From: Rhizomicrobium sp.
GTDB taxonomy: Bacteria > Pseudomonadota > Alphaproteobacteria > Micropepsales > Micropepsaceae
Direction of reading: 5' to 3'
DNA: 34,507 bases
Assembly (NCBI GenBank): GCA_025451875.1
Contig: JANWJQ010000066.1
Location: 1 to 34,507, forward strand
Under the pieces are notes generated by a model. It saw only the letters and a program-made list of their open reading frames with translations, ran no database searches and was not told the DNA's origin. Every line of letters begins with the position of its first letter. Positions within the stretch are counted from its first letter, which is position 1. The translations under genes were made by a program, and so were the position numbers. This document shows positions 16,167-31,967 of the stretch, one piece after another.

Positions 16167-16231
16167 ACACGGCTTTCGTGATAGCCGCGATTTTGTTAGG
16201 AATATGCTCAATACGCCAGCACGGGGATACC

Positions 16232-17424: not shown

Positions 17425-17452
17425 TTGGGACAATCGGGGGACTACATATTAT
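17425..17452 (+). promoter_or_regulatory. Candidate promoter for the acyl carrier protein-serine palmitoyltransferase operon
   Basis: TTGGGA (17425-17430) and TATTAT (17447-17452) are spaced by 16 bases in an AT-rich region about 75 bases upstream of the acyl carrier protein ATG. The -10 matches the sigma-70 consensus at five of six positions and the -35 at four. The rest of the gap from 17310 to 17527 shows no gene that I recognise. Confidence 0.4.
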
Positions 17453-17527
17453 CACATCGTCTCCAAGCTGGCTGGCGTGGAATTCGACTGGCACTCTTCG
17501 TGTCGAATTGGGCTGATAAAAACGGTA

Positions 17528-17779
17528 ATGAACGAGTCCGTAGATGACATTCGAACCATCGTGACCTCCACGCTGCGCGCGTTGCTGCCGGCGCCGGTCG
17601 AACTTTCCGACAACACCAACATCATGCGCGACCTCGGCCTGGACTCGGTATCAGTGATGGATTTTGTGATGGAAACCGAGGAGTGCTTGGACATTTCCGT
17701 TCCGCTTGATCGGATTTCGGAAGTCGAAACGATCGGCGACCTCGTAACGATGCTGCACGATCTAAAAGGCGGGGATTGA
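17528..17779 (+). CDS. Acyl carrier protein
   Basis: This 83-residue protein is a stand-alone acyl carrier protein. Ser 40 in DLGLDSVSVMDFV is the attachment site for 4'-phosphopantetheine, and the four-helix pattern and length fit the family. The start at ATG 17528 gives the usual short acidic N-terminus; only a weak AACGG precedes it. The gene ends 3 bases before the serine palmitoyltransferase start. In sphingolipid-making alphaproteobacteria such as Caulobacter a dedicated acyl carrier protein gene next to spt is known, and it is thought to supply the acyl chain to the synthase. The same role is inferred here from position. It is unlikely to be the housekeeping fatty-acid AcpP, which normally sits between fabG and fabF. 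Confidence 0.93.
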   Translation: MNESVDDIRTIVTSTLRALLPAPVELSDNTNIMRDLGLDSVSVMDFVMETEECLDISVPLDRISEVETIGDLVTMLHDLKGGD

Positions 17780-17782
17780 GCG

Positions 17783-19042
17783 ATGTCATTGTTCGACAAG
17801 TTCGAGCCGCTGAATGCACAATACGTTCGGCTGGAAGCGATCGACGCCAATCCATTTGCTATCACTTTCGACCACGTGTTGTCACCCACAGAAGCGATGA
17901 TCGGAGACAGTCGCATTCTGCTGCTCGGCACCAATAACTATCTTGGTCTTACCTACGATACCGAGATTGTCACGAAGGCAGTGCAGGCGACGCGAGCGTT
18001 CGGAACTGGCACCACAGGATCGCGCATAGCCAACGGTAGCTACGACGGCCACAAGAAGCTCGAACGCGCACTGAAAGATTTCTACGGTCGCAAGCACGCA
18101 ATGGTTTTCTCAACCGGCTATCAGGCCAATCTGGGAATTATCTCAACGCTCGCCGGAAAGAACGATCACCTGCTTCTCGATGCAGATTCCCACGCAAGCA
18201 TTTACGATGGCTCGCGGCTCGGCCATGCGCAGGTCACCCGTTTTCGTCACAACGATCCTAACGATCTGCACAAGCGACTGCGCCGTTTGGCCGATGTTCC
18301 AGGCGACAAGATCGTCGTCGTCGAAGGCATCTATTCGATGCTGGGAGACACTGCTCCGTTGCGTGAATTTGCGGAGGTGAAGCGTGAATGGGGCGCCTAT
18401 CTCATCGTCGATGAGGCCCACTCGCTGGGCGTGCTTGGCGAAACGGGTCGCGGCCTCGCCGAAATGCAGAATGTCGAGCCCGACGTGGATTTTGTTGTCG
18501 GCACCTTTTCAAAGAGCCTCGGCAGCGTGGGCGGCTTCTGCGTCAGCAATCTGGATGATTTCGACATCCTACGTGTCGCGTGTCGGCCCTACATGTTTAC
18601 CGCGTCGCTGCCCCCCGGCGTGATCGCGGCGACGATGGAGGCGCTACATCAGTTACGCGCGCGGCCCGAATTACGGCTCCGTTTGATCGAAAATGCGAGG
18701 CGGCTTTATGCCGGTCTGACTGGGTTGGGTTTTTGTCTTGGTCCGGAGCCGAGTCCTGTCGTATCTGCCATCATGCCAAACCCCGAAACCGCTTTTGCCC
18801 TATGGTCCGATCTTTTGAAGGCCGGCCTCTACACCAATGTGAGCTTGCCGCCAGCGACGCCCAATGGCTTGGCGCTGTTGCGTTCGAGTGTCAGTGCCGC
18901 GCACACTCCGCAGCAGATCGATCACGCCATCGCGCTGTTCGAACAGACAGGCCGCGCATTAGGGATGGTCCCCGCATCCGCGGCCACGCATGCTTCACAC
19001 CACGCAGCTGCGTCTCCGTCATTAAGCGTAACGTCGGCGTGA
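17783..19042 (+). CDS. spt: Serine palmitoyltransferase
   Basis: The 419-residue protein belongs to the alpha-oxoamine synthase family of PLP enzymes. It matches in pattern the soluble serine palmitoyltransferase of Sphingomonas, which condenses L-serine with a long acyl thioester to give 3-oxosphinganine, the first step of sphingolipid synthesis. Visible features are SRIANGSYDGH near 80-90, STGYQANLGIISTLAGK at 110-126, the PLP-stacking His 137 in DADSHASIYDG, Asp 210 and His 213 in VDEAHSLG, the PLP Lys 244 in GTFSKSLGSVGGF, and the FTASLPPGV and PPATPNG segments. Related family members (KBL, BioF, HemA) differ in these segments. It is cytoplasmic. The acyl carrier protein gene lies immediately upstream. 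No ceramide synthase or ceramide reductase gene is seen in the window, so the pathway needs genes elsewhere. Confidence 0.9.
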   Translation: MSLFDKFEPLNAQYVRLEAIDANPFAITFDHVLSPTEAMIGDSRILLLGTNNYLGLTYDTEIVTKAVQATRAFGTGTTGSRIANGSYDGHKKLERALKDFYGRKHAMVFSTGYQANLGIISTLAGKNDHLLLDADSHASIYDGSRLGHAQVTRFRHNDPNDLHKRLRRLADVPGDKIVVVEGIYSMLGDTAPLREFAEVKREWGAYLIVDEAHSLGVLGETGRGLAEMQNVEPDVDFVVGTFSKSLGSVGGFCVSNLDDFDILRVACRPYMFTASLPPGVIAATMEALHQLRARPELRLRLIENARRLYAGLTGLGFCLGPEPSPVVSAIMPNPETAFALWSDLLKAGLYTNVSLPPATPNGLALLRSSVSAAHTPQQIDHAIALFEQTGRALGMVPASAATHASHHAAASPSLSVTSA

Positions 19043-19231
19043 CGTTTTGCGCCACAGCTGCCACAATTGGACTGTGGGATCAGATAGCTGTCTGCGATAG
19101 GGTGAAATTGCCGGTTGCCGGGGCCGGCAGACATCTTTAGCCTCGGTCCGTCGGCAATCCACGCCATCCAAAGATTCTGATCTATTGATTGCGGTTTCTT
19201 GGCCGAATAGCTTGGCACGCCTACGCACCCC

Positions 19232-20506
19232 GTGAGCGCATATCCTTTGAAAATTCTTTTCGCTTTCGAGAATTCTCTGCCGAGCACCGAGGCGGATGCC
19301 GAAGTCTTCGTAACGACGGCACGATACCTTGCATCTGCGCTTGAGAAGGCATGGTTTCACGTTCCGACTTCGCGCCTTGCAGACCGCAGCGCTCTTGCCA
19401 CGCTGACCGGTATGCCCGTGATTCACGCCATCGCGCCGGCGCGACCTGCGGCTCTGAGACATCTTCTTTGCGGGTTGACACTGATATTTCGCGAGCAATT
19501 CCGCAACGCCGATCTTGTCTACACCAGAAACCTATGGATCGCATGGATAGCGGTGAAATTCGGGCGGCGCGTGGTATTCGATCACTACCGTCCATGGCCT
19601 GATCAAATTCCACCCTTGCAATTTTGGATTTATCGACTGATGTGCAATCGGCGGTTTCTGATCAATATCTGTCATTCCGAATACACCCGCCGAAAATACC
19701 TGGCGCTCGGGATTCCACCGGGCAAGCTGGTCTGCGTTCACAATGGCTTTGAACCGCAGCGTTTCAAAATTCCGCTTTCATTGGAGAATGCGAAACAGGC
19801 GATCGGCATCTCGTCCGCGACAAAAACCGTTGTCTATACTGGGCGCATCAATCACAAGAAGGGATTGAACCTGGTACTAGAGGCAGCGAAAGGGCTGCCG
19901 GATATCCTTTTCCTACTGGTTGGTTCCTATGGTGATGGACCTATCGAGGTGATGGCCAAGGATATTCCCAATGTCCGCGTTATACCCTGGCAGCCGGAGG
20001 ATGCAGTCAGTCGGTATGTGTTCGCCGCAGACGTTTTGCTGATACCTCCATCGTCGCAGCCTCTGGCCAAGTTCGGCTCAACAGTCTTGCCGCTGAAGCT
20101 GTTTTCCTACATGGGTTCGGGGCGCGCCATCCTTGCGGGTGATACACCGGATGTGCGCGAAATTCTAAAGCACGAAGTGAACGCCTTCCTTTGCCGCCCC
20201 GATAGCCTGGAGTCTCTGATAACCGGAATTAGAGCACTGACGGATGACATCGACTTGGCGGAACGCATCGCCGCGCAAGCACTTGTGCAAAGCCGCGACT
20301 TTACGTGGGACGCACGCGCGCGAACGATTGCCCGCATTATTGAGAGCCGCCTTCGCTCCGCGCCGGAGCAAGACGGCACATGGAGCCGCGCGCAGTTCCT
20401 CAACTGGTTGCACCAGTCGCGACGCTGGCTGATGCATCTTGTTCGGCGCCGATCATGGGTGCTCCCCCCAACGCCACCGTCCACCGCAGGTGCGCCGCGC
20501 GCGTGA
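19232..20506 (+). CDS. GT4-type glycosyltransferase
   Basis: The 424-residue protein has the two-Rossmann GT-B shape of glycosyltransferase family 4. The N-terminal half has LKILFAFENSLPS and the acceptor-side segments. The C-terminal donor-binding half has VVYTGRINHKKGLNLVLEA, LVGSYGDGP, VRVIPWQPEDA and LPLKLFSYMGSGRAI, the last replacing the common E-x7-E donor motif with a variant. GTG 19232 is taken as the start because it gives a proper first beta strand. It follows the serine palmitoyltransferase gene by 189 bases and precedes the flippase gene by 4 bases, so it is probably in the same transcription unit. It would transfer a sugar from a nucleotide sugar on the cytoplasmic face of the membrane; donor and acceptor are unknown. 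Confidence 0.88.
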   Translation: MSAYPLKILFAFENSLPSTEADAEVFVTTARYLASALEKAWFHVPTSRLADRSALATLTGMPVIHAIAPARPAALRHLLCGLTLIFREQFRNADLVYTRNLWIAWIAVKFGRRVVFDHYRPWPDQIPPLQFWIYRLMCNRRFLINICHSEYTRRKYLALGIPPGKLVCVHNGFEPQRFKIPLSLENAKQAIGISSATKTVVYTGRINHKKGLNLVLEAAKGLPDILFLLVGSYGDGPIEVMAKDIPNVRVIPWQPEDAVSRYVFAADVLLIPPSSQPLAKFGSTVLPLKLFSYMGSGRAILAGDTPDVREILKHEVNAFLCRPDSLESLITGIRALTDDIDLAERIAAQALVQSRDFTWDARARTIARIIESRLRSAPEQDGTWSRAQFLNWLHQSRRWLMHLVRRRSWVLPPTPPSTAGAPRA

Positions 20507-20510
20507 CGAT

Positions 20511-21953
20511 ATGGACAGCCACCGTCAACATTTGAGTCGCGGATTCAACTGGCTTGGTGGCGCGACTATCATTGCCAAGACCATCGACTTTTCGACGATC
20601 CTCCTCGTGCTGCTGTTTCTCACCAAGGAACAGGTAGGTGTCGCGTCTCTGGTCGTCTCGATTGGCATGATTATCGAGGCATTCGATGGATTGGGCACCG
20701 CCGATGCGCTGGTGCAGGCGCCGTCGATCTCCCGTCTTCAGCTCGATACACTCTTCTGGTTTATCGTCGGCGCGGCGCTGGTCGTCGCTGCTCTTACGCT
20801 GCTTATGGCGCCGTGGATTGCGGCGATTTATGGGACCGCGGGAATGGCGGCATATTTCCTGGCTATCGCAGCCAAGCAACCCCTCGTCGCCGCTGCGGTG
20901 ATTCCACTGGCGGTCATGAACCGGAACCTGCAGTTCGAGCGCATCGCCGTGGTCAATGTCTGCGCGACCTTCGGCGCCGCAATGACGCGGCTGGGCCTGG
21001 CGGTTGCTGGTGCAGGCGCGTGGGCGCTGGTTGCCGGATACACAGCGAGCGGGCTTTTCCTGCTGCTCGGTGCCTCGCTGGCCAGCCCTTTCAAACCGAC
21101 ACTGCGATTTCAAATGCCGGCGATTACGGCGCTGGTGCGTTTCGGAATCCGGGCCGGCACCTCCAATATCATTGAACAAGTGTTCAAGAACATCGACTAT
21201 CTATTGATCGGCTGGTTTTACGGCCCGGCGCCGCTTGCGATCTATCGTGTAGCCTTCGACGTTGCAATGGAACCCGCCATGGCGATCGGCACACTTGTCA
21301 ATCGAACCGCGTTGCCTGTGTTTGCAAAGATAGCGGCGATGAAGGAGCAACTTTCGCAGGCTCTCATCTGGTCGGTAGGCCGGATTGCGACGCTGGTGGC
21401 GCCGCTGATGGTGGCACTAATTCTTATCGCGAATCCACTCATGGCGCTGCTTCATGATCGCCAAGGCCACAGTTACGCGGCAGCGGCATTGCCCCTTAAA
21501 TTGCTCGCGGGCGCCGCATTGCTACGCGTAGCCTCGCAGATTCTTTATCCATTAATGATGGGCACCGGCCGTCCAGGATCTGCAGCCCGGCTATCGGCGG
21601 CAACGTTGGTGCTTCTCACTGCCGGCATCGTGGCGGCCGGATTCAGCTTTCCGGAGGAAACAGGCATAGTGGCCGTCTCCGCGGTCTGGCTTGGCGTCTA
21701 TCCGTTGCTCATCATCTGGGGCATGCGCCATCTGCGGATTCACTGGGACATTCGGGCCGCAAATTTCTTGCAAGTCTTCGTTGCGCCGGCCCTTGGCGTT
21801 TGCGCATTGGCCGGAATCGTCGAAACCGGCCGTCTGTTCATTGCAAACGGCGACTTGACGATTCAAGTCGGCCTCGTTCTGGCGGCGACGGCGCTAACTT
21901 ATGCCGGACTTATCCTACATGCCCGTTACCACCCATCTACACCGGCGATGTGA
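20511..21953 (+). CDS. Oligosaccharide/lipid flippase of the Wzx (MVF/MATE-like) family
   Basis: The 480-residue protein is almost entirely membrane: about twelve to fourteen hydrophobic helices with short loops. It opens with SRGFNWLGGATIIAKTIDF and contains FGIRAGTSNIIEQVFKNIDYLLIGWFYGP, a segment pattern typical of polysaccharide flippases of the Wzx/RfbX type. Such proteins move lipid-linked saccharides from the inner to the outer leaflet of the cytoplasmic membrane. ATG 20511 is chosen because it starts 4 bases after the glycosyltransferase stop. Its 3' end overlaps the convergent radical SAM gene by 17 bases. In this context it may flip a glycosylated sphingolipid or a separate exopolysaccharide unit. 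Confidence 0.88.
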   Translation: MDSHRQHLSRGFNWLGGATIIAKTIDFSTILLVLLFLTKEQVGVASLVVSIGMIIEAFDGLGTADALVQAPSISRLQLDTLFWFIVGAALVVAALTLLMAPWIAAIYGTAGMAAYFLAIAAKQPLVAAAVIPLAVMNRNLQFERIAVVNVCATFGAAMTRLGLAVAGAGAWALVAGYTASGLFLLLGASLASPFKPTLRFQMPAITALVRFGIRAGTSNIIEQVFKNIDYLLIGWFYGPAPLAIYRVAFDVAMEPAMAIGTLVNRTALPVFAKIAAMKEQLSQALIWSVGRIATLVAPLMVALILIANPLMALLHDRQGHSYAAAALPLKLLAGAALLRVASQILYPLMMGTGRPGSAARLSAATLVLLTAGIVAAGFSFPEETGIVAVSAVWLGVYPLLIIWGMRHLRIHWDIRAANFLQVFVAPALGVCALAGIVETGRLFIANGDLTIQVGLVLAATALTYAGLILHARYHPSTPAM

Positions 21954-22968
21954 CGTCTCCCGGCGCGATACCCGCGGCAGCAACCGGATCTGGAATTGTC
22001 TGCGCACCGCGATGGCGATCAAACATGCTCATTTGATGAACACAACTCAAGGTGCAAGACGGGCTGCACGTTTTCTCTGTGTTGAATTCGCGGCGGATAT
22101 CGTCGCTTGTATATTCGAGTAATGGAATTCCCGGATAGCCGCGCTGCTGCGAACACCAGTGCACCTTGCCATCCTCGCAAATATACAGATAGCGCGCACC
22201 TGCCCTGCACTTCCAGTCGTTGGTCTGGCCGTGCATCAAATTTTTCTGAAACAGCCAGTAATTCAGGCTATGCACCATAGACGGCGAAATCTTCGTGACC
22301 TGGGTGTAGGCATCCATCTGTGCAGGACTGAGAGGTTTCAACGTGCCGGTGCCGTCGTGCAAGACACCAACAGAATGCTGCAGACCGTATTTTGCCGCGG
22401 TCTCTGCGACTGTCACGACTTCCTGCGTTCGCTCTCCGCTAACGCCAAGGACAGAATTGACGTTGACCTTGAATTTGGCGTGCTGCGAAAGCAATCCCAG
22501 CTTTCGCTCCACGGATGAGAGACTCTTCATCGACACTTCATCGGGCTTGAGATTGTCGATGCTGATCTGCATACCCTGCAAATCCGCCGCGTTGAGCCGA
22601 TCGATCCATGCTCGCGTCAAGCGAAAGCCATTGGTGATCATCGTCACAATCATGCCGTGATTGCGAGCTGCACGGACGAGCTTATCGAGATCTGGATGTA
22701 GAAGCGGTTCGCCGCCAGTGAAGGTGATCGATGCGGTTTTTAGCGCGGCAAGATGATCAATGCGCGCGAGCAAAACATCCAGTGGAACGGGTGGGGAAAA
22801 ATCGTCGTATTCGTTGCAGTACCCGCAACTCAGGTTGCAACGCCGGGTGACGACGATTTGGGCCAGAAGCGGATTGTACCGCGAACTGACTGCACGGGCG
22901 AGAAACCGTGCTCCGGAACTCAGTCCTCCGAGCCGGCGAGAAGCGGGTGTGATGTTGGTAACTGTCAT
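21937..22968 (-). CDS. Radical SAM protein with cysteine-rich (SPASM-like) C-terminus
   Basis: The 343-residue protein carries the radical SAM iron-sulfur motif as CNLSCGYC (Cys 44, 48, 51), the SAM-binding TGGEP at 85-89, and a TNGFRL segment. The C-terminal third has at least seven further cysteines, including CRAGARYLYICEDGKVHWC and CSPSCTLSC, resembling an auxiliary cluster-binding SPASM or twitch domain. The first domain looks like the group that includes HpnH and peptide-modifying enzymes. Its substrate is unknown, and no precursor peptide was seen nearby. It is the last gene of a minus-strand unit after the glycosyltransferase and PIG-L genes, 82 bases below the latter, so a role in modifying the same sugar or lipid is plausible. 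ATG 22968 has only a weak ribosome site. Confidence 0.88.
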   Translation of the reverse strand: MTVTNITPASRRLGGLSSGARFLARAVSSRYNPLLAQIVVTRRCNLSCGYCNEYDDFSPPVPLDVLLARIDHLAALKTASITFTGGEPLLHPDLDKLVRAARNHGMIVTMITNGFRLTRAWIDRLNAADLQGMQISIDNLKPDEVSMKSLSSVERKLGLLSQHAKFKVNVNSVLGVSGERTQEVVTVAETAAKYGLQHSVGVLHDGTGTLKPLSPAQMDAYTQVTKISPSMVHSLNYWLFQKNLMHGQTNDWKCRAGARYLYICEDGKVHWCSQQRGYPGIPLLEYTSDDIRREFNTEKTCSPSCTLSCVHQMSMFDRHRGAQTIPDPVAAAGIAPGDVTSPV

Positions 22969-23050
22969 TCGGCCACTCTGAAAAGCTTATGCGGTCTCGC
23001 AAAACTAGGTCAGTTGATAGCATTCCGGCGCATCAAACATAGTTACGGAA

Positions 23051-23860
23051 TCACAACACGGGCAGCCTTCTGCGCGCGCCGCGCCATGACGGTGGCCACC
23101 ATCTGAGACCCGCGACGTCCAGAAGCCATTCCCCGGACAGAGGCAGCCGGGGCTGTAGATCTGCGCCGGAAGGCTGGGCGTAGAGCGTCTCTTCGGCGGG
23201 CCAGCGATGGACACGAGTCCAGGTCCAAGCACCGTTGCGCCTGTACACCCGCATCAGAGCGCGTGCAGTAACGAGGTCGGGCTGGACCGCGCGGCGTTGC
23301 GTCCAACTGGGTTGGCTGGCGGTCAGTTGTGCCAAAGGCCAACTCGCGGCACCGACATAGTTGGTGAACCAGACCGTATATCCGATTTCGGCCTGCAACG
23401 CAGCAACCGCGCGATAGACTTGGATGTGGTCGGCGTGACCATACTCACCCCAGGGGTTATGCGTGTAGACCACATCACATCCAGTTAGAGCAGTTCGCAG
23501 CGCTTCGACCAGCGAGCGGTAGTTGTCTTCGTAACGGGCGCAAGCCGCAGGATCCGTGATCGCGATGCCGAAAGGTGTGGGCTGCGGCCGCGCCCAGTCC
23601 ACCAAAAATCTCGCACCACTTTCAGGCAAGGCGAGATTGAGCAGACCCCGCAAAGGGAGAGCGGCAACGGCCCGCCTTCGCGCAGCGGCTTTTTTTGATT
23701 TCCCGAACGGATCGCCGAAACAGAACACAATACGATCCGACGACGCCACGACCGAGCTGAACCAGAGGCTCTCATCGTCGGGATGCGCCACGACCAGCGC
23801 AGTTCGCGGCGATGCGGACGCTATGTCATCGCTATTCTGCACCCGACAAAACCTCGTCAT
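23051..23860 (-). CDS. PIG-L/LmbE-family N-acetylglucosamine deacetylase
   Basis: The 269-residue protein is a zinc-dependent deacetylase of the PIG-L family. The metal and catalytic motif AHPDDE lies at residues 25-30, and the third-ligand motif is HADH (142-145) in GEYGHADHIQV. Known members remove the acetyl group from N-acetylglucosamine attached to inositol or lipid: PIG-L in GPI anchors, MshB in mycothiol, BshB in bacillithiol. ATG 23860 gives 29 bases of overlap with the upstream GT4 gene, a strong sign of coupling; GGAGG lies somewhat far upstream, so a slightly different start is possible. Pairing with a GT4 enzyme repeats the transferase-plus-deacetylase logic of those pathways. The presence of inositol-phosphate synthase in the same block makes a GlcN-inositol unit an attractive guess. 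Confidence 0.9.
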   Translation of the reverse strand: MTRFCRVQNSDDIASASPRTALVVAHPDDESLWFSSVVASSDRIVFCFGDPFGKSKKAAARRRAVAALPLRGLLNLALPESGARFLVDWARPQPTPFGIAITDPAACARYEDNYRSLVEALRTALTGCDVVYTHNPWGEYGHADHIQVYRAVAALQAEIGYTVWFTNYVGAASWPLAQLTASQPSWTQRRAVQPDLVTARALMRVYRRNGAWTWTRVHRWPAEETLYAQPSGADLQPRLPLSGEWLLDVAGLRWWPPSWRGARRRLPVL

Positions 23861-24965
23861 AGAAGTTTTCGAGAACCTCCGTTTGCGTCCGGATGTCAAA
23901 CCGCTGCTCGACAAGCGCACGCGCCTGCCTGCCCATGCGAAGACGCATGGCCGGATCGCTCAAAAGATCATCGATCCGCCGGGCCAATGCCTCAACGTCG
24001 CGTTCGGGTACCAGAAAGCCCGTACGGTCATCAAGAACGCCTTCCGGTATGCCGCCGATGCGCGAAGCAACGACCGGCACTCCTGTGGCCGCAGCTTCCA
24101 GCAAAACCATACCCAAGCCTTCGACGCGTCCCGTGGTTGTTCGAACACTCGGCAGAACCAGCATTGCCGCCCGGCGCATATGCGCCAACACTTCGCCGTG
24201 GGCTTGCGCACCCAAAAAACGCACGCGCGGCCCCAACCCCAGAGACCTTGCGAGCTTTTGAAGGGTACGTTTACGCGGTCCATCACCAATGATGACCAGC
24301 TGAACATCCGCATATCTCAACGCAAGAGCCGCGAATGCCCGGATAAGGTATTTCGTGCCTTTGACGTCCGCCAACCGCGCAACATGCAGGATCGTCCGCG
24401 TTTCCTCTGAGGGATCGCGCGGCGTAATCGCACGCCAATCCACGCCGATATAGTGCGTCCGCGTACGTGCTTCCGGAAAACCCAATGCCAATATACGATC
24501 GCGAATGAATGACGAAGCGCAAAGGAATAAGGCTCCTTCTTGCGCAAGATTGCGCCTATACAGCGGATAATTCATCCAGGCAGGCGAAGACAGTAGTGCT
24601 GCTGTCGATAGCGTCGCATCGAAGCCATGAAACGTCGTCACCAACGGAATATGTAGCCGCTTCGCTAGTGGAAGCGCGTACACGCCCTCAATGCCGAAAT
24701 GGGCATGAATGATCGCGGGGTGGCGGCCCCGGAGCAGATTCTGGTAGGGCTCCGGGTTGCGCGACAGCATCTGTCGCCCGATGCGCAGATACGCTCTTGG
24801 CCCGCCATCGAACAATGCTTGGGACACAGCACCCTTCGGCGACTCACCATAGCGCATCCGCCCCAGATAGAGCGGCTTGTAGCGGCGCAGGTTTTGCGCC
24901 TGCTGAACGATGAAGGGTTCGGATATTCTGAACAGATTATGACGGAATATTATAATCTCGCGCAC
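23832..24965 (-). CDS. GT4-family glycosyltransferase
   Basis: The 377-residue protein is a clear GT-B, family 4 glycosyltransferase. Its N-terminal domain has AIIHAHFGIEGVYALPLAK and VTTFHGFDATLS. The C-terminal domain has ILHVARLADVKGTKYLIRA, LVIIGDGP, VRFLGAQAHGEVLAHM and the EGLGMVLLEAAATGVPVVAS donor motif with the E-x7-E spacing. The start is GTG 24965. It is the first gene of the minus-strand unit glycosyltransferase, PIG-L deacetylase, radical SAM, and overlaps the deacetylase start by 29 bases. By analogy with MshA/MshB it could add GlcNAc to an inositol-containing acceptor that the deacetylase then trims. That is inference; family 4 covers many donors and acceptors. Confidence 0.92.
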   Translation of the reverse strand: MREIIIFRHNLFRISEPFIVQQAQNLRRYKPLYLGRMRYGESPKGAVSQALFDGGPRAYLRIGRQMLSRNPEPYQNLLRGRHPAIIHAHFGIEGVYALPLAKRLHIPLVTTFHGFDATLSTAALLSSPAWMNYPLYRRNLAQEGALFLCASSFIRDRILALGFPEARTRTHYIGVDWRAITPRDPSEETRTILHVARLADVKGTKYLIRAFAALALRYADVQLVIIGDGPRKRTLQKLARSLGLGPRVRFLGAQAHGEVLAHMRRAAMLVLPSVRTTTGRVEGLGMVLLEAAATGVPVVASRIGGIPEGVLDDRTGFLVPERDVEALARRIDDLLSDPAMRLRMGRQARALVEQRFDIRTQTEVLENFYDEVLSGAE

Positions 24966-25047
24966 GCCGTGGCCACCCGCAGAATTTGCTTAATCTCGTC
25001 GCATCGCCGTCTATATCGATGCGAAGCGAATAGTATCCGGAAGCAAT

Positions 25048-25530
25048 ATGCGAAAATCGATGAAATCTCTGATGTCGGCTATCCTGCTGTCACTTCTCTC
25101 CGCCTGGCAACCGGTGCGGGCAGATACACTCATGTCTTGCAACGAGGCGGACCCCGCCCAGGTCCGCTTGCAGGTCAGCGTCAGCGACATGCGCTCGAGT
25201 GACGGTAACATTACAATCACGATCTATCCTGACGACCCGCCTCACTTCTTAGATGGAAAATATAAGCTCGCCCGGCAAATCGTACCGGTAAAGTCGCCGG
25301 TGACGCGCGTCTGTTTCGCAGTTGCAGCGCCCGGCTTCTACGCTGTGGCTCTTTTTCACGACGAAAACAATAACCACCACCTGGACACCACGCTGCTGGG
25401 AATACCGTCGGAGGGGTACGGCTTCTCCCAAAACCCGAAGCTCTTTCTGGGGCCGCCCAAATTCAGCCAGGTTCGTGTTGCCGCCCACCCAGGCGACAAT
25501 CCGGTCGCCATCCAGATGAAGTATTATTGA
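25048..25530 (+). CDS. DUF2141 family secreted protein
   Basis: The 160-residue protein has a signal peptide (residues about 1-25, ending PVRA) and a DUF2141-type domain with the diagnostic FHDENNNHHLD, then LGIPSEGYGFSQNP. This family of small exported beta-rich proteins is common in sphingomonads and other Gram-negatives; its function is unknown. GGAAG precedes ATG 25048 at good spacing. It is divergent from the minus-strand glycosyltransferase unit and 207 bases upstream of lptF on the same strand. The acidic HDEN motif could bind calcium, but nothing in the sequence proves it. Confidence 0.88.
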   Translation: MRKSMKSLMSAILLSLLSAWQPVRADTLMSCNEADPAQVRLQVSVSDMRSSDGNITITIYPDDPPHFLDGKYKLARQIVPVKSPVTRVCFAVAAPGFYAVALFHDENNNHHLDTTLLGIPSEGYGFSQNPKLFLGPPKFSQVRVAAHPGDNPVAIQMKYY

Positions 25531-25737: not shown

Positions 25738-26874
25738 TTGATCATAAACCGCTATTTGATCCGCGAGATCAGCAAGCCACTGGCGACCACACTTGTTGTC
25801 CTCGTGACCCTCTTCGCGAGCTACAGCACCGCCGAATTTCTGTCAGATGCCGTCAACGGACTGCTGCCGACGAATACCATCGGAGAGATGATCGGCCTTA
25901 AGGCATTGATCTCTCTAGAGGTGCTGATACCGGTTTCTCTTTATATTTCGATCCTTCTGTCGTTTGGAAGGCTGTACAGCGACTCCGAATTTACGGCGAT
26001 GTTCGCACTGCGCGTAACCCCACTCAGAGTCATGGGGTCGGTTCTTACATTGTCGGGCGCTTTGGCTGTTGTCGTGGCCTTGTTATCGCTGTTTGTGCGG
26101 CCTTGGGCGTACGAAAAACTGCATACGCTTTCAAAACGGGCGGAAGCTTTCGCCAATGTCGATAACATGGAAGCCGGCACGTTCTATATTGGCGAAGATG
26201 GAGGCCGGGTTATATTTTTGAACCATCGCGACGGCCCGAAATCTGCGGCCAGCGATGTATTCGTGCAGTTGAGCTACCCCAATCGAATGCGAATTCTCTC
26301 CGCACGACATGCATACCAGCTACCGCGAACCAACGATGGCGGCAGTTCGGATATCTATTTGAGCGATGCCCATATTTACGATATCGGGCGGGAAAAAGAT
26401 CAAACTGACAGTGTGATAGATGCACAGGGGATCATCTTGAGGCCGCCGGACCCGAGTCTCGAACAACCCGGATACAGTTCCGTCAGTGCAGGCACAGAAA
26501 TGCTCGCGATTTCTGGCGGACTTCAAGACATCGCCGAGTTGCAATGGCGGCTGTCTACTTCGCTTTCGACAATTCTACTTGCCATGCTCGCTGTACCGTT
26601 GAGCCGCATGAGGCCTCGACAAAACCGATATGCGAAGATGGGAACCGCGGGTCTGATCTATTCTGGCTACTATCTGTTGTTCACGTCGGCGCGCACATGG
26701 GTTCAGCAAGGGACGGTGGCGCCGCTCCCCGGCATCTGGTGGGTTCCGGCGTCGCTTGCGGCGGTCGTAGCCATCGTCTGGGTTCAACCAAATCTGGGCT
26801 TTGAATTGAGGCGGCTGCGCGTGCGCTTCAACACATGGCACGCGCAATGGTTGGGCGGCCGTGACGCGGCTTGA
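25738..26874 (+). CDS. lptF: LptF-like inner-membrane permease of the lipid exporter
   Basis: The 378-residue protein is a YjgP/YjgQ-family permease. It starts MIINRYLIREISKPL, has three hydrophobic helices in the first 130 residues, a periplasmic beta-jellyroll-like domain (about 140-265) and three C-terminal helices. Typical late LptF sequence is present: PLSRMRPRQNRYAKMG, then TSARTWVQQGTVAPLPGIWWVP. In LPS export LptF and LptG form the transmembrane part of the LptB2FG ABC transporter and pass lipid to LptC. The start is TTG 25738, which gives the normal N-terminus, with a weak ribosome site. It overlaps lptG by 14 bases. No lptD, lptA, lptB or lptC gene is seen beside it, and the pair sits inside a sphingolipid-type block, which raises the possibility of a specialised second copy. 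Confidence 0.88.
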   Translation: MIINRYLIREISKPLATTLVVLVTLFASYSTAEFLSDAVNGLLPTNTIGEMIGLKALISLEVLIPVSLYISILLSFGRLYSDSEFTAMFALRVTPLRVMGSVLTLSGALAVVVALLSLFVRPWAYEKLHTLSKRAEAFANVDNMEAGTFYIGEDGGRVIFLNHRDGPKSAASDVFVQLSYPNRMRILSARHAYQLPRTNDGGSSDIYLSDAHIYDIGREKDQTDSVIDAQGIILRPPDPSLEQPGYSSVSAGTEMLAISGGLQDIAELQWRLSTSLSTILLAMLAVPLSRMRPRQNRYAKMGTAGLIYSGYYLLFTSARTWVQQGTVAPLPGIWWVPASLAAVVAIVWVQPNLGFELRRLRVRFNTWHAQWLGGRDAA

Positions 26875-27952
26875 CCGTTACATCGCGGCCGCGGCACTCC
26901 GCGGCGTCCTGTTGGTCGCCACGGCGTTGACCTTGCTGTTCAGCCTGCTGGAATTTGTCGAACAGCTCAGTTCGGTTGGTCAAGGCCACTACCGACTGAT
27001 CGACGACCTTTTCTATGTCCTGCTCACGATTCCGTCACGCCTGCTCCAGGTGATGCCCGTGTCGATGCTGATAGGCTCCCTGCTCTCCTTGGGCACGCTC
27101 GCCGATGCCTCAGAGCTTACAGCGCTGCAATCGCTCGGCATGTCGGAACGCCGCATCATAGGTTCGGTGCTCGCGCTTGCGTGCCCGATCGTCATCACTC
27201 TGTTTCTGATAGCGCAGTTTGCGATCCCACCAACGCAACAATTCGCTGAAAGTCTGCGAGCATCGAAGTTATCGCCGTCCGCGTCGGTTCGCAGCACAGA
27301 CACTTTTTGGAGTCAGGGCAATCGCCAATATCTCAACGTGCAGCGCTTTGAACATGGCAATATTCCGAGAAACATCAATATCTATGCTTTCTCAGCGGAC
27401 GGGCGTCTGACCAGCGCGATTCGCGCAAAACGCGCTGACATTCGGTCGGACGGGACATGGCTTCTCTTCGACGTGGTGCGTAAGCGCGTTCAGTCCTCAC
27501 AATTCCAGACCGACTATCTGACTTCGCTTATCTGGCACTCTTTTTTGCCCCCCAAAAACGTCCAACAACTGCTTATGCCGCCCGACACCATGGCGCCCGT
27601 CGAATTATATCTTTACATCCGTGATCTCAGCCGCAGGCACCAGCAAGCTACGCGGTACGAGGCGGAATTGTGGACCAAGATCGGCATTCCGTTTTCGATC
27701 ATGGCCATGATCCTAATAGCGGCGCCGTTTGTGTTCGGTGCAATGCGTGCGCATGGCACTGGTCAGCGCATCGTCATTGGCGCCGGCTTCGGAATTGTGT
27801 TTTCTCTGGTCCAGCAAATTGCGGGCCGTTTAGAGTTGCTGCTAAACTTGAATCCGGCAGTGATCGCGTTGACGCCTTCTTTTGCGGTCATGGCGTTAGC
27901 AATCCACCTTTTTCAGCGGATGCATAGGCCCGGCAGGGAACTGGTCACTTAA
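26861..27952 (+). CDS. lptG: LptG-like inner-membrane permease of the lipid exporter
   Basis: The 363-residue protein is the partner permease. It begins MTRLDRYIAAAALRG at GTG 26861, inside the last codons of lptF. The first half has three membrane helices with IPSRLLQVMPVSMLIGSLLSLG and the ELTALQSLGMS coupling segment. A periplasmic beta domain with YLNVQRFEHG and NINIYAFSADGRL follows, then three helices preceded by YEAELWTKIGIPFSIMAMIL and APFVFGAMR. These are standard LptG features. It would pair with LptF to extract a lipid from the inner membrane. Its 3' end overlaps the convergent CDP-alcohol phosphotransferase gene by 8 bases. Confidence 0.9.
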   Translation: MTRLDRYIAAAALRGVLLVATALTLLFSLLEFVEQLSSVGQGHYRLIDDLFYVLLTIPSRLLQVMPVSMLIGSLLSLGTLADASELTALQSLGMSERRIIGSVLALACPIVITLFLIAQFAIPPTQQFAESLRASKLSPSASVRSTDTFWSQGNRQYLNVQRFEHGNIPRNINIYAFSADGRLTSAIRAKRADIRSDGTWLLFDVVRKRVQSSQFQTDYLTSLIWHSFLPPKNVQQLLMPPDTMAPVELYLYIRDLSRRHQQATRYEAELWTKIGIPFSIMAMILIAAPFVFGAMRAHGTGQRIVIGAGFGIVFSLVQQIAGRLELLLNLNPAVIALTPSFAVMALAIHLFQRMHRPGRELVT

Positions 27953-28868
27953 CGGGCTCCATCTCTTGGATAAACTGCGCGTAGCGCGCGGACTGACGAG
28001 GGAGAAGAACAGCCAGAATTGCGCTAAAGCCAAAAATCTCGAACAGAAAGTAATATTGAGGCACTGACAGCGCCGCGCCGATGAATATCCCAATGGTGCG
28101 ATAATTGGCGGATAGAATGGACCATCGCCGAATGGCCGGTGCGAATGTCTCGCGATAGCGCTCCCGGATGGAAGCCGCCTGTTCCGGGTTCATTTTCAGG
28201 AGATTGGCCATCTTTTCGTCGAAGCCGGCAGGTATGCCGACCACCATCAACTGGACGCCGACATATAGCCGGTTGAGCATATGCATGATGCGCGTGGTAA
28301 AGGAGGCCTTGGCTTCATTTGGCGGTGGCCTGTTGAGTGCCAAAAGTGCCGCCGATTTCCGATCCATACCCCAATACTCATATTCCTGCCTTTGCACCTC
28401 ATAGGCGGCCGCCTGAACGGCGTGGCAGATCCCAGCGGAAACGGCGAGTATCCATATCCACCCTCCGAATTGAGCGCTAAGCGCAAGTGCCAGAGCAGAG
28501 TAGACGGCGATAAACGTCGTATAATCGCAAATCCCGTCGATTACTTTCCCAAATTCGGATTGCGAATTCGTGAGGCGGGCAAGCTGACCGTCCGTGCCAT
28601 CCATGATGTGCCATAAAATCATCAGCACAAAGCCGGCAATCGCCCATTTCACGTCTTGATAGTGGTAGTAGGAAATCGCCGCCAATATACCAAACGTCAT
28701 TCCCGCGAAGGAAACGGCATTGGGAGATACATGCAGGCTCGCCAACACTGGTGTCAGACGGTTCGAGATCGGATGAATGAAATAGAGATTGGTTATCTCT
28801 TCGATATCCGACGTGCGCCGGATGGGCTCACGGGGCTTCCCCTCTCCCCCACGAGACGAACCTGTCAA
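27945..28868 (-). CDS. CDP-alcohol phosphotransferase, candidate phosphoinositol transferase
   Basis: The 307-residue membrane protein carries the complete CDP-alcohol phosphotransferase motif between residues 90 and 115: Asp 90, Asp 93-Gly, Ala-Arg 97-98, Gly 107, Asp 111 and Asp 115, in the right spacing (MDGTDGQLARLTNS, then FGKVIDGICD). Several hydrophobic helices follow. The N-terminus has FIHPISNRLTPVLASLHVSPN, a segment typical of the family. Members move a phospho-alcohol from a CDP-activated donor to an acceptor alcohol. The gene starts with TTG 28868, overlapping the cytidylyltransferase stop in TTGA, and is third in an operon after inositol-phosphate synthase. This favours phosphoinositol transfer. 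The acceptor could be ceramide, diacylglycerol or inositol phosphate; ceramide is inferred from the neighbouring sphingolipid genes. Confidence 0.9.
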   Translation of the reverse strand: MTGSSRGGEGKPREPIRRTSDIEEITNLYFIHPISNRLTPVLASLHVSPNAVSFAGMTFGILAAISYYHYQDVKWAIAGFVLMILWHIMDGTDGQLARLTNSQSEFGKVIDGICDYTTFIAVYSALALALSAQFGGWIWILAVSAGICHAVQAAAYEVQRQEYEYWGMDRKSAALLALNRPPPNEAKASFTTRIMHMLNRLYVGVQLMVVGIPAGFDEKMANLLKMNPEQAASIRERYRETFAPAIRRWSILSANYRTIGIFIGAALSVPQYYFLFEIFGFSAILAVLLPRQSARYAQFIQEMEPVK

Positions 28869-29581
28869 AGCATACCTGTTTCAAGCAGGTTCTCAGCCTT
28901 TCCGAACGCCGCGGGATCGTCAACATCGATCCAGACCCGGTCCTGAATATCGAACGCACGCGCCTTGTTCCGGCGCGCGAGCACGTTCATCGCGCCCGAG
29001 ATACTATCATCTCCGTTCGCCTGGCTTTCTTCGAGCGCGTCGAATATGGCGGGAGTGCAAAGAAAAAGGCCCGTATCCAGTGCGTTGAAGTCCCGGATGA
29101 CTTTGCCAATATGATGGATGGAGCCGCCTGAACATTTGACGCGCGTGACGTCCTCCAGATCGTTGAGCGGTCTGTCGATATTGAAATCGACCCCCAGCGT
29201 GACGGTATCCGGCTCGACAGGCACGGACATCAGGCTACGAAATATTTCCGGATCGAGCAAATGATCGCACATGGTGAGCAGAAAGGGCTCGTTCAGATAT
29301 GGCTTCGCTTTGAGCACCGAGATTCCGTTCGCACGATCCCAGCTTTCATTGACGATGTGTTCGATGCGAAGGTTTTCCCGCGCCGAAAACGCGTCTAATT
29401 CCATGCGAAGTTCATCACCCCTGTAACCACTGACAACCCAGAATTCATCGACGCCGCCACTACGGGCCCGGTCGATCACGCGCTCAATCAACGGAATTCC
29501 CTTAATTTCGATCAAAGGCTTGAGCTGGCCTTTTTCTCTCAGCCTGACGCCTTGCCCTGCGGCAACGATAAGGCACTTCAC
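28865..29581 (-). CDS. Nucleotidyltransferase, inositol-1-phosphate cytidylyltransferase-like
   Basis: The 238-residue protein is a sugar-phosphate nucleotidyltransferase-fold enzyme. The nucleotide-binding loop is LIVAAGQGVRLREKG with Lys 21 in LKPLIEIKG. A metal-binding Asp 106 lies in LTMCDHLLD, RANGISVLKAKPYL sits at about 83-96, and WIDVDDPAAF is near the C-terminus. These segments look most like the inositol-1-phosphate cytidylyltransferase domain of thermophile di-inositol-phosphate enzymes, which makes CDP-inositol from CTP and inositol-1-phosphate. Choline- or glycerol-phosphate cytidylyltransferase-like activity is the main alternative. It starts with GTG 29581 overlapping the inositol-phosphate synthase stop by 4 bases, and its stop overlaps the CDP-alcohol phosphotransferase start by 4 bases. 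This order matches the domain order of the fused archaeal enzyme. Confidence 0.85.
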   Translation of the reverse strand: MKCLIVAAGQGVRLREKGQLKPLIEIKGIPLIERVIDRARSGGVDEFWVVSGYRGDELRMELDAFSARENLRIEHIVNESWDRANGISVLKAKPYLNEPFLLTMCDHLLDPEIFRSLMSVPVEPDTVTLGVDFNIDRPLNDLEDVTRVKCSGGSIHHIGKVIRDFNALDTGLFLCTPAIFDALEESQANGDDSISGAMNVLARRNKARAFDIQDRVWIDVDDPAAFGKAENLLETGML

Positions 29582-30708
29582 AGAGCGGCCAACATTTTCT
29601 TGGTATGCGTTCGGATAAATGCCTCGATCATGTCGTAGGCGACGTCGTCCGAATATTGCTTAGCCGGGTGTTTACAAAAATACGCGCTGGGCGCCTCAAG
29701 TACGCCGCCAACACCGCTTTGAAGCGCCAGTTTGCAGCACCGGATCATGTCGATGACGACGCCGGCCGAATTGGGCGAGTCCTCCACCGACAGCCGCAAC
29801 TCCAGATCCATCGGGACGTCCCCGAACAAATGTCCTTCCATCCTCAGAAAACAAATCTTGTTGTCATTTTGCCATGGCACATAGTCGCTGGGGCCCACAT
29901 GGATGTTTTCGTCCTCGATACGGGTCTTCGCGACGGACTGCACGGCTTCGGTTTTGGATGTTTTTTTGGACACCAGCCGAGTCTGGTTCTTCATGTTGAG
30001 GAAGTCGGTATTGCCACCAGTGTTCAATTGGTATGTCCGCAACAACTTCACCCCACGCTTCGCGAACAGGTCTGTCAAAACACGATGTGTAATTGTGGCG
30101 CCAAATTGGGATTTTATGTCGTCTCCAACGATCGGCAGATTGCGTGCTTTGAACCGATCAGCGAAACTTTTGTCACTGGCGATGAACACCGGCATGTTGT
30201 TAATGAAGGCGACGCCGGCTTCTAACGCACATTCGGCGTAGAAGCGCGCGGCTTTTTCCGACCCCACGGGAACATAATTGAGCAGAATTTCGGCGCCGCT
30301 ATTTTTCAGCTCGCGAACAATTTCCGCCTTCGTCAATTCCGTTACACCGGAGCGGACGAACGTCCTGTCTTCCGCATAGTCCGCCATGTGTTCGGAAATG
30401 CCATCAAGTACCGGCCCCATGCGCACGACCACGCCACTCGGGGGGATATCTCTTTGAAAAATCTTTGTGCAGTTTGGTTTGGAAAAAATCGCCTGACTTA
30501 CGTCCATGCCGACCTTGCGGGCATCGACATCGAATGCCGCAACGACTTCGATGTCACACGGAAGATAACCGCCGATTTCCGCATGCATCAAGCCAGTAAC
30601 CCCCTGGCGACAACGCTCGGCGGTATAATAGTGAATGCCTTGGACGAGAGAACTGGCGCAGTTTCCCACCCCCGCGATCGCGATCCGGATGCTACCCTTC
30701 TTTGTCAT
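29578..30708 (-). CDS. ino1: myo-Inositol-1(3)-phosphate synthase
   Basis: The 376-residue protein is a prokaryotic-type inositol-3-phosphate synthase, which converts glucose-6-phosphate to inositol phosphate using bound NAD. It shows the NAD-binding AIAGVGNCASSLVQG near residues 10-24, DIEVVAAFDVDARKVG, NYVPVGSEKA, FINNMPVFIASD, then GDDIKSQFGATITHRVL, RTYQLNTGGNTDFLNM and, near the end, SPNSAGVVIDMIRCCKLAL. All are standard for the family, and the length is typical of actinobacterial and archaeal members. ATG 30708 has AAAGG 9 bases upstream. It is the first gene of a three-gene minus-strand operon with 4-base overlaps at both junctions. The enzyme is uncommon in proteobacteria; its presence points to an inositol lipid or inositol-linked sugar product. 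Confidence 0.93.
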   Translation of the reverse strand: MTKKGSIRIAIAGVGNCASSLVQGIHYYTAERCRQGVTGLMHAEIGGYLPCDIEVVAAFDVDARKVGMDVSQAIFSKPNCTKIFQRDIPPSGVVVRMGPVLDGISEHMADYAEDRTFVRSGVTELTKAEIVRELKNSGAEILLNYVPVGSEKAARFYAECALEAGVAFINNMPVFIASDKSFADRFKARNLPIVGDDIKSQFGATITHRVLTDLFAKRGVKLLRTYQLNTGGNTDFLNMKNQTRLVSKKTSKTEAVQSVAKTRIEDENIHVGPSDYVPWQNDNKICFLRMEGHLFGDVPMDLELRLSVEDSPNSAGVVIDMIRCCKLALQSGVGGVLEAPSAYFCKHPAKQYSDDVAYDMIEAFIRTHTKKMLAAL

Positions 30709-31001
30709 GATGTACCTTTGTGAACCTCAACCCTGAGCCCAAGGTAGCCCAAACCAATCTTAAGTTCATAGTGGGTGTCGCTTTGTTGTTTTTTCCCAAT
30801 CTTCGGATGCGGCCGGAATTCGGGTGCCGGTCATGTGGGTATAGTTAAGGAAAGCAAGGATCTGCTATGGGCCGCGCGCTGAACCGGGAAGTTTACCTGT
30901 TCTAGATTACAATCCCAAATGGCGGCACCATTAGCGGGTTGTGAGCCGGAAGAGGGATCTTTGCGCCTTCACTTGCAAACCCGTCGCAGGTCGAAACGGG
31001 G
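30709..31001. other. Intergenic region upstream of the inositol operon
   Basis: The 293 bases between the GT32 gene end and the inositol-phosphate synthase start are AT-rich and contain no recognised gene. They must hold the promoter of the inositol operon unless it is read through from the GT32 gene. I found only poorly spaced -35/-10-like pairs and do not assign one. Confidence 0.4.
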
Positions 31002-31967
31002 CTAAGTGGCGTCCGGCAAGTGACAAATACAGGAACAGACGAGCGCGCTATACAATTGATGGTTTCGATGCTCTCGCACATAGTCTGGAGCGATCAACGC
31101 GACGCGGGATTTTGTCCGGACCGACGCATACCAATGTACAATGCGGGTTTCCGCCAATAAGACCTCATTTAATCGTACATCCCGGCCAATCCGGAACCAA
31201 TGCTCCGAAATTTCTGGCGGCAAAGGATAAAACGCATCCGGCCCGTAAACGGTTAAATCTCGTCCGCGATACCGATCGACGACCTCTTGCAACAAGTCGG
31301 GACCGAGACCATAGGCCTGCTCCTGGCGTTCAGGCGCCATGGCAATCATAGCCTGGAGATAGTCGGAGAAAAAAGGCGCACGTGCTTGCGCGCCCATTAC
31401 AGCATTGTTGACGCCGCAAAAATAGAATTTCTCGATCCGCCGGAACCACTTCCATCCGTTTGGCAAATGCCTCAACGCCCTGCGGGCAACATCAAGAGCA
31501 AGATGCCGCGCCCACACCACGGGAGAAGTCGATACACGCACAGAATGGGGCCACACAATAAATTCAGACCCAATGAATTGCCTGTTATCGAGCAAAGACT
31601 TCAGAGAAGCGACCGTGATAGTGTCCATATCCAAGTACACCCCTCCCTGCATGTAGAGAATTGCCGCCCGCAGAATATCCGCCCGCGCCACCGGACTATC
31701 CAGGCGACGGTAAAGCGCCACCAATTCCCCGTCGAAGCCCAGCACACGCTCTGTCTTGGCCAAATATGTGGGGGCATCGAGTCGAGAGAGCCGCACGCGC
31801 GGCGAGTTCCTGAGCGCGCGCAGTTCAGCGCCATCTTCAAGCACATCTGTATGGTGAAGAATGATTTCCGGCAGCTCACTATGCTCAGCCGCAGATAGAA
31901 TGGCGAACACGTAGGCCCAAGATAGCCTGCTGCCGATCCAGCAGAAATGCACACAAGCGGGAATCAT
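31002..31967 (-). CDS. GT32-family glycosyltransferase (DXD sugar-binding region)
   Basis: The 321-residue protein is a GT-A fold glycosyltransferase of family 32. IPACVHFCWIG is the usual first strand. ARADILRAAILYMQGGVYLDMDT contains the DXD metal/nucleotide-sugar motif at residues 113-115, and NNAVMGAQARAPFF is the conserved downstream segment. Bacterial members add sugars to polysaccharides and lipid-linked glycans. In yeast the GT32 proteins Sur1 and Csh1 mannosylate inositol phosphorylceramide, which is notable given the inositol and sphingolipid genes next door, but specificity cannot be read from this sequence. ATG 31967 has only a weak ribosome site. It lies upstream of the inositol operon on the same strand, 293 bases away. 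Confidence 0.87.
   Translation of the reverse strand: MIPACVHFCWIGSRLSWAYVFAILSAAEHSELPEIILHHTDVLEDGAELRALRNSPRVRLSRLDAPTYLAKTERVLGFDGELVALYRRLDSPVARADILRAAILYMQGGVYLDMDTITVASLKSLLDNRQFIGSEFIVWPHSVRVSTSPVVWARHLALDVARRALRHLPNGWKWFRRIEKFYFCGVNNAVMGAQARAPFFSDYLQAMIAMAPERQEQAYGLGPDLLQEVVDRYRGRDLTVYGPDAFYPLPPEISEHWFRIGRDVRLNEVLLAETRIVHWYASVRTKSRVALIAPDYVREHRNHQLYSALVCSCICHLPDAT

Follow-up and report, generated by a model that had tools for sequence, protein, structure and literature searches.

A predicted gene cluster for a glycosylated inositol-phosphoceramide in Rhizomicrobium sp. and other Proteobacteria

Plants, fungi and protozoa are the best-known sources of glycosylated inositol phosphoceramides. 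A block of 14 genes that probably directs the synthesis and export of such a lipid, the product being predicted from the gene content, is described here from Rhizomicrobium sp. (positions 17,425 to 31,967 of contig JANWJQ010000066.1, assembly GCA_025451875.1). The 34,507-nucleotide stretch analysed (the window) is the entire contig, C66 of the genome under study (G000), whose assembly comprises 2.98 Mb and is 81.6% complete. A broader interpretation, favoured by a small measure over its denial, is that the block represents a proteobacterial counterpart of the glycosyl inositol phosphoceramide and glycosylphosphatidylinositol (GPI) systems. It would include a Kennedy-type synthesis of inositol phosphoceramide (IPC) from CDP-inositol and ceramide without AUR1, decoration with glucosamine and other sugars, and a third LptF/LptG class of its own, the kit moving as a unit between Alpha- and Gammaproteobacteria alongside ordinary lipopolysaccharide (LPS).

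In the proposed pathway serine palmitoyltransferase (SPT), a dedicated acyl carrier protein (ACP) and genes resembling acyl-ACP synthetase, ketosphinganine reductase and ceramide synthase, all of them present, would provide ceramide, a step that fatty-acid hydroxylase genes may join in many relatives. Inositol-1-phosphate synthase (MIPS) would supply inositol-1-phosphate, a nucleotidyltransferase (NTP transferase) acting as a cytidylyltransferase would convert it to CDP-inositol, and a CDP-alcohol phosphotransferase would place phosphoinositol onto ceramide with release of CMP. Because the head group rather than the lipid would be activated, an AUR1-type synthase and a phosphatase would both be dispensable. 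One GT4 glycosyltransferase (GT4b) may attach an N-acetylhexosamine that a PIG-L-type enzyme deacetylates, as in mycothiol and GPI biosynthesis; a second one (GT4a) and a GT32-type enzyme would add further sugars, a radical S-adenosylmethionine (radical-SAM) enzyme would tailor the head group, and a MOP-family flippase with a block-specific LptF/LptG pair would carry the lipid toward the outer membrane.

The block is one conserved unit and more than a set of chance neighbours, since the same genes recur together in other genomes while the genes flanking them in the window do not. Among the 61 genomes of the genus-level set (G000 and 60 relatives; 37 belong to the genus of the window), block-type MIPS (at least 84% identity) occurs only in G000, G030 and G017, and the same three genomes (3 of the 37 genus members) carry SPT of at least 73% identity; the remaining genus matches to the SPT query are at most 41% identical and were taken as related acyltransferases. 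Within a class-level set of 385 genomes SPT was found in 49 (E ≤ 1e-100) and MIPS in 31 (E ≤ 1e-60). Two further MIPS of at least 84% identity belong to two other families (G389 and G280), and there SPT shares the contig with MIPS and is 78% and (as a partial copy) 61% identical to that of the window; overall, SPT identity to the window is 73–78% in G030, G017 and G389. The 14 genes stand in identical order in G030, of the same genus, and G389, of another family (GT4a, MOP, radical-SAM, PIG-L, GT4b, DUF2141, SPT, ACP, LptF, LptG, CDP-alcohol transferase, NTP transferase, MIPS, GT32), the sole difference being that SPT and ACP lie upstream of GT4a in the window.

A wider survey across GTDB-220, with genomes of 84,980 species, used a five-sequence cytidylyltransferase alignment as query and two short peptide patterns, which bias it to close relatives, and yielded 86 cytidylyltransferase relatives, of which 80 were kept. 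They come from Acidocella aromatica, A. facilis, A. aminolytica, Nitrospirillum, Azospirillum sp. B4, several Gluconacetobacter, Lichenicoccus, Acetobacter peroxydans, Acidomonas, and metagenome-assembled genomes (MAGs) of Kordiimonadaceae/Emcibacteraceae and Gammaproteobacteria. MIPS, NTP transferase and CDP-alcohol transferase genes are consecutive in 55 of the 80 loci. Sixty-two loci with NTP transferase identity of at least 60% were treated as close (identity thresholds are our choice, and the gene counts are lower bounds owing to short contigs). They contain MIPS (55), CDP-alcohol transferase (56), LptG (42), LptF (41) and MOP flippase (21); the ceramide genes SPT (28), ACP (28), AasR (24), bCerS (21), CerR (20) and fatty-acid hydroxylase (17); and the tailoring genes GT4a (27), GT4b (27), PIG-L (23), GT32 (22) and radical-SAM (15), with DUF2141 in 9. 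At least one of SPT, bCerS, CerR and AasR is present in 34 of the 62 (28 of these 34 with SPT), and all four accompany the NTP transferase in 15 loci. The ceramide genes lie within the same gene run as the block in Acidocella aromatica and Nitrospirillum, and the block core is present in Gluconacetobacter. A Kordiimonadaceae locus (L178) combines MIPS and NTP transferase with a MOP flippase and, on the opposite strand, the CDP-alcohol transferase; its SPT is elsewhere in the genome, and neither LptF/LptG nor ceramide genes were found in the stretch.

The genes flanking the block in the window (acetate kinase, TonB receptor, M13 peptidase, cytochrome c and others) matched nothing in the 80 loci at more than 31% identity, and an aminotransferase and a helix-turn-helix–cupin regulator upstream (14964-16927) are likewise not conserved with the block there. 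Scans of open reading frames (ORFs) outside the core in five loci (L137, L145, L152, L155, L158) gave unrelated families or no family. A preliminary description of this DNA had held that a failure of the genes to co-occur in relatives would speak against its interpretation; they do co-occur, in the genus, class and wider surveys. Pfam and NCBIfam profile searches of the window ORFs, from which the feature identities given below derive, recovered every gene that it named at its coordinates, and its statement that these lie together with little else overlooked two block members, the radical-SAM enzyme (21937-22968, - strand) and a DUF2141 protein (25048-25530, + strand). The gene set that it attributed to this bacterium is present but not special to it, as it recurs in other families and in the genera named above. 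Its interpretation as a route to a glycosylated inositol-phosphoceramide gains support at the gene level from the co-occurrence, the relatives of the cytidylyltransferase, a shared MIPS–NTP reading frame and the ceramide genes of the same genome.

The SPT of the window (17783..19042, +), which would commit the pathway to a sphingoid base, scores 670.7 bits against NCBIfam NF047599, above the cut-off of 500, and below the cut-offs of the bioF and KBL models, which places it in the SPT family and not with 8-amino-7-oxononanoate synthase (AONS) or 2-amino-3-ketobutyrate CoA ligase (KBL); its best NCBIfam match is the 'BetaP' model. The beta- or gammaproteobacterial origin to which this match first pointed was rejected, since the same-genus G030 corresponds by sequence to an alphaproteobacterial genome (L152). 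The ACP (17477..17779, +; PF00550, 3.6e-11), in which an internal ATG may be the true start, adjoins SPT here, in relatives and in a second copy on contig C59 of the same genome. On that contig (L045, 1170-7766) an AMP-binding enzyme, an epimerase-family protein, ACP, a second SPT (81% identical), a phosphoesterase and a GNAT protein form one run. In domains and gene order only, this run resembles the AasR-, CerR-, ACP- and CerS-like ceramide genes of Caulobacter, where the set is aasR-cerR-acpR-spt-cerS (PMC11324152). The GNAT protein has a counterpart in every one of the ten genomes tested. In G030, G389, G017 (77%), Acidocella and Nitrospirillum this counterpart is encoded on the block contig and is 76-81% identical; in three others it lies elsewhere, at 35-54% identity. 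Two SPT copies also occur in the MAG SZAS-36 and in Nitrospirillum viridazoti.

For the inositol branch, the MIPS gene (29578..30708, -; PF01658, 3.3e-35) encodes an actinobacterial-type Ino1 that matches the Mycobacterium tuberculosis enzyme (1gr0) with an E-value of 3.6e-115. As a separate observation, a different MIPS (49-58% identical to that of the window) has as a neighbour, less than 2 kb away, a protein with 31-34% identity to SPT in three genomes (L048, L049 and L052), a pairing that may belong to another inositol plus amino-ketone pathway. The NTP transferase (28865..29581, -) is a predicted CTP:inositol-1-phosphate cytidylyltransferase (IPCT): the best solved relatives of its profile (2xme, 4mnd and 4jd0; E 5.7e-23 to 6.4e-15) are enzymes of this activity, as 4jd0 is identified in PMC12275187, and the N-terminal R13 and K21, presumed residues of the nucleotide site, are invariant and align with IPCT. 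The CDP-alcohol phosphotransferase (27945..28868, -; PF01066, 4.8e-15), the proposed IPC synthase (CDP-inositol:ceramide phosphoinositol transferase), keeps the motif DxxDGxxAR..GxxxDxxxD invariant in 22 aligned sequences, and its AlphaFold2 model (predicted local distance difference test, pLDDT, 85.6) has AF2299 and phosphatidylinositol-phosphate synthases as nearest folds. The three ORFs overlap by 4 bp at each junction, which fits one coupled operon. In G280 (L111, identical to L130) MIPS and the cytidylyltransferase domain make up a single 625-aa reading frame within a run of SPT, fatty-acid hydroxylase, ceramide-synthase-like protein, MIPS–NTP and GT32. Together, the structural relatives and this shared frame point to a CDP-inositol step.

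Neither a HAD hydrolase nor an AUR1-like enzyme or phosphatase was found among the Pfam-scanned ORFs of the block, the Acidocella core of L137 leaves no ORF of at least 90 aa unassigned, and two of the ten genomes tested, those of Acidocella aromatica and Acetobacter peroxydans, yielded no PAP2_3 match at E ≤ 0.001. The lack of HAD and AUR1-like enzymes from the block and the genomes without a PAP2_3 match are among the grounds for the proposed reaction, in which CDP-inositol and ceramide would give inositol phosphoceramide and CMP. A ceramide-phosphoinositol core is on this evidence very probable, and chemistry by way of CDP-inositol, as read from the sequences, is only slightly less so.

Alternatively, the inositol branch might lead to phosphatidylinositol (PI; from CDP-inositol and diacylglycerol) or to a GPI-like glycosylated PI, the sphingolipid genes being a neighbouring outer-membrane lipid pathway. 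Related CDP-alcohol transferases (PI-phosphate, archaetidylinositol-phosphate and choline phosphotransferases) act on glycerolipids, and CDP-inositol plus diacylglycerol is what Heaver et al. propose for an alternative cluster of Bacteroides (PMC9246714). This explanation appears unlikely, given that the ceramide genes lie within the cluster in several lineages, that the MIPS–NTP frame of G280 sits beside SPT, fatty-acid hydroxylase and ceramide-synthase-like genes, and that 25 of the 28 close-locus genomes without nearby ceramide genes carry SPT elsewhere (E ≤ 1e-90), the class-wide figure for SPT being 49 of 385 genomes. A Fisher test on these related genomes mixed two criteria (any ceramide gene or SPT on one side, SPT alone on the other) and is given no weight here. 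Six of the 34 loci with ceramide genes, in which SPT is absent from the stretch, were left out of this genome-wide search.

Export of the predicted inositol-phosphoceramide would involve the MOP flippase (20439..21953, +; PF13440, 1.1e-50), proposed to act on the (glyco)lipid and present also in G030 and G389, and the LptF-like (25738..26874, +; PF03739, 2e-53) and LptG-like (26861..27952, +; PF03739, 6.5e-72) permeases. Each of four block-free genus members tested has two LptF/LptG genes, whereas four are present in each of six block genomes (G030, G389, Acidocella, two Nitrospirillum and Lichenicoccus), six in each of three Gluconacetobacter, and eight each in Acetobacter peroxydans and Acidomonas; G017 gave five matches including a fragment. 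A tree of 40 LptF/LptG sequences groups the block LptF in a clade of seven (support 0.999) and the block LptG in a clade of six (0.983), both separate from the canonical and the SPT-linked pairs, to which the block pair is 21-28% (canonical pairs compared) and 23-24% identical. Orthology with the SPT-linked, Caulobacter-like pairs (LptF2/LptG2 type) was considered and rejected, as the two are separated in this tree of 40 sequences, which includes SPT-linked pairs of other genomes and no named Caulobacter. The complete genome of Gluconacetobacter diazotrophicus holds three LptF/LptG pairs (L247, L248 and L249), one canonical, one near SPT and one belonging to the inositol block; each lipid class may have an exporter of its own. 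The DUF2141 protein (PF09912, 1.1e-29) is a recurrent partner in sphingolipid loci, lying near SPT and LptF/LptG in other cluster types also (35-44% identity; L113, L115, L125); no paper joining DUF2141 with sphingolipid was found among those searched.

That the block pair should be the ordinary LPS exporter, placed here by accident and with no part in sphingolipid transport, is improbable. It is true that the incomplete genome of the window shows just these two LptF/LptG genes together with lpxC (LpxC was found in 17 of 17 genomes searched, this one included), but the additional pairs in the other block genomes, the two genes of block-free genus members and the separate clades all speak against it. 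Export of the lipid by the block LptF/LptG pair ranks below its core chemistry in our estimate and is nonetheless likely.

The sugar part of the predicted lipid is approached through five enzymes. GT4a (19232..20506, +; PF00534, 1.8e-15) is 63-66% identical in G030 and G389. GT4b (23832..24965, -; PF00534, 4.6e-44), a candidate GlcNAc transferase, shows no variation at E282 and E290 across 15 sequences, and among its solved relatives are BshA, a D-inositol 3-phosphate glycosyltransferase and phosphatidylinositol mannosyltransferases. The PIG-L/MshB-type N-deacetylase (23051..23920, -, start uncertain; PF02585, 4.1e-9) has the motifs AHPDDE and GHxxH, which do not vary among 11 sequences and agree with the AHPDD/HxxH zinc motifs of such deacetylases; at E ≤ 0.01 MshB alone was matched among solved structures, and weakly. 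The GT32-type DXD protein (31002..31967, -; PF04488, 2.2e-10) has D113xD115 invariant in 15 sequences and matches solved structures only remotely (best E 0.00029). The radical-SAM enzyme (PF04055, 2.4e-20) has C44x3C48x2C51 and five more cysteines invariant in 18 sequences; in its low-confidence model (pLDDT 70) BlsE is nearest among mixed neighbours that include viperin, PqqE, SkfB, MoaA, AprD4 and BtrN, and it probably tailors the head group. In mycothiol synthesis (MshA/MshB) and in eukaryotic GPI synthesis (PIG-A/PIG-L) GlcNAc-inositol is deacetylated, and the block follows this logic, with a GT4 enzyme and a PIG-L-family deacetylase after inositol phosphate formation, differing in its ceramide setting and in the weak similarity of its PIG-L to MshB. 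Two gammaproteobacterial MAGs carry, next to the same radical-SAM gene, a polysaccharide deacetylase (PF01522; L165, 15014-15862, and L141, 6442-7329) and no PIG-L match within the stretch examined. This is an apparent non-orthologous replacement, and the unrelated deacetylase in the place of PIG-L supports a deacetylation step. By analogy with these systems, an amino-sugar decoration of the lipid is reasonably likely.

The same resemblances would allow a soluble product, di-myo-inositol phosphate or a mycothiol-like thiol, with PIG-L and GT4 in the same path: the NTP transferase and CDP-alcohol transferase domains resemble the archaeal and Thermotoga enzymes of di-myo-inositol phosphate phosphate (DIP-phosphate) synthesis, and MIPS, GT4b and PIG-L resemble Ino1, MshA and MshB. 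Such a product is very improbable, the trio keeping company with ceramide, flippase and LptF/LptG genes and the Pfam-scanned ORFs of the block containing no MshC/MshD-type or phosphatase domain.

A number of observations weigh against the assignment to a glycosylated inositol-phosphoceramide. SPT was not found genome-wide (E ≤ 1e-90) in three genomes with a close NTP transferase (L147, L168, L170). Of the 18 loci with NTP transferase identity below 60%, 17 were searched (L186 omitted); nine gave an SPT match, that of L201 at just 43% identity, and SPT was absent in the other eight genomes (L184, L195, L197, L203-L207), which indicates that the inositol trio also serves some other purpose. In L203-L206, which come from MAGs of Alphaproteobacteria and Anaerolineae that gave no SPT match, MIPS shares one frame with a distant IPCT-like domain, likely for another inositol product. 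The sphingolipid-linked MIPS–NTP frame is known from one MAG only, in which a sequencing error may have removed a stop codon. The template modelling (TM) score of the CDP-alcohol transferase model against AF2299 is only about 0.47, and ceramide is assigned as acceptor from genomic context, diacylglycerol or inositol phosphate being possible. PAP2_3 is present in eight of the ten genomes tested, the window's own included, on other contigs or at a distance, where it could perform an unlinked AUR1-type step. GT4b and PIG-L were not found in the Gluconacetobacter stretches examined, a gap that together with the partial counts of GT4b (27/62), PIG-L (23/62), GT32 (22/62) and radical-SAM (15/62) means that the sugar part varies. 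Finally, as G000 yielded no LptF/LptG besides the two of the window, the 'extra' status of the block pair rests on its relatives.

That unrelated envelope genes lie together here by chance, or that the assembly is at fault, as the different placement of SPT and ACP in G030 and G389 might hint, can be practically dismissed, because the block recurs across many separate assemblies, isolates included, and the ACP-SPT-GT4a order of the window is found in a second genome, SZAS-36 (cytidylyltransferase 93% and SPT 92% identical), in which this stretch overlaps the rest of the block, so that the arrangement of the window is no assembly error. The window MIPS is 84% identical to those of the same-genus G030 and G017 and 87% and 85% to those of G389 and G280 from other families, whereas LpxC identity, compared for three of them, falls from 61% (G030) and 62% (G017) to 46% (G389). 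Closer similarity across families in MIPS than in LpxC, the one marker compared, suggests that the block has moved horizontally, and the cluster is probably mobile. Elsewhere in the window, positions 2916-3446 encode a small Gly/His/Tyr-rich protein without a Pfam match.

Two published systems come closest, each sharing a part of the block: the Bacteroides vulgatus/Prevotella alternative cluster (PMC9246714) and, in Caulobacter, the sphingolipid locus (PMC11324152). The former comprises MIPS, an NTP transferase, a CDP-alcohol transferase and a HAD hydrolase, with an unconfirmed CDP-inositol route (Heaver et al., 2022; PMC9246714), a proposal repeated in PMC10191378. Likened by description, it shares with the block the trio (adjacent in the window) and the proposed CDP-inositol intermediate; it differs in the HAD hydrolase, its proposed second step, which the block ORFs lack, and the passages on it do not name the ACP, SPT, glycosyltransferase, deacetylase or LptF/LptG present here. 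In Bacteroides thetaiotaomicron (BT_1522-BT_1526) MIPS also feeds inositol phosphoceramide, but through a PI-phosphate synthase, a phosphatase and an AUR1-like IPC synthase (PMC9246714), in place of which the block has a cytidylyltransferase. A lipid resembling phosphoinositol dihydroceramide (PI-DHC) is reported from Novosphingobium acidiphilum with no known cluster (PMC9246714). The Caulobacter locus (CC_1152-CC_1168) likewise unites ceramide genes, a flippase and LptF2/LptG2 (PMC11324152), and the cytidylyltransferase CpgD, which resembles the IMPCT of T. maritima, makes CDP-glycerate for its sphingolipid (PMC12275187); it has a phosphoglycerate head group and a ceramide kinase, whereas the block has MIPS, PIG-L and several glycosyltransferases. 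The route of the Caulobacter sphingolipid to the outer membrane is given as not known in PMC11324152. The IPCT/DIPPS of Archaeoglobus and Thermotoga join the same two activities, cytidylyltransferase and CDP-alcohol transferase, in making di-myo-inositol phosphate (PMC12275187; NCBIfam NF041135), whereas the block has two separate proteins tied to ceramide genes. A literature search, largely without subscription papers, recognised no paper on a proteobacterial inositol-phosphoceramide cluster of this combination.

Plants and fungi make inositol phosphoceramide by an AUR1-type exchange from PI, and yeast Sur1, which belongs to GT32, is among their enzymes. The block would match them in its predicted product class and in a GT32-type enzyme, and would differ in the predicted CDP-inositol route.

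If this interpretation is correct, the cluster would provide a bacterial source of glycosyl inositol phosphoceramides in culturable Acidocella and Nitrospirillum, with the core in Gluconacetobacter, as well as an IPC synthase of new chemistry and a system in which to study the delivery of sphingolipids to the outer membrane. The CDP-inositol route, so far an unconfirmed proposal for Bacteroides (PMC9246714), can also be tested through it in other bacteria.

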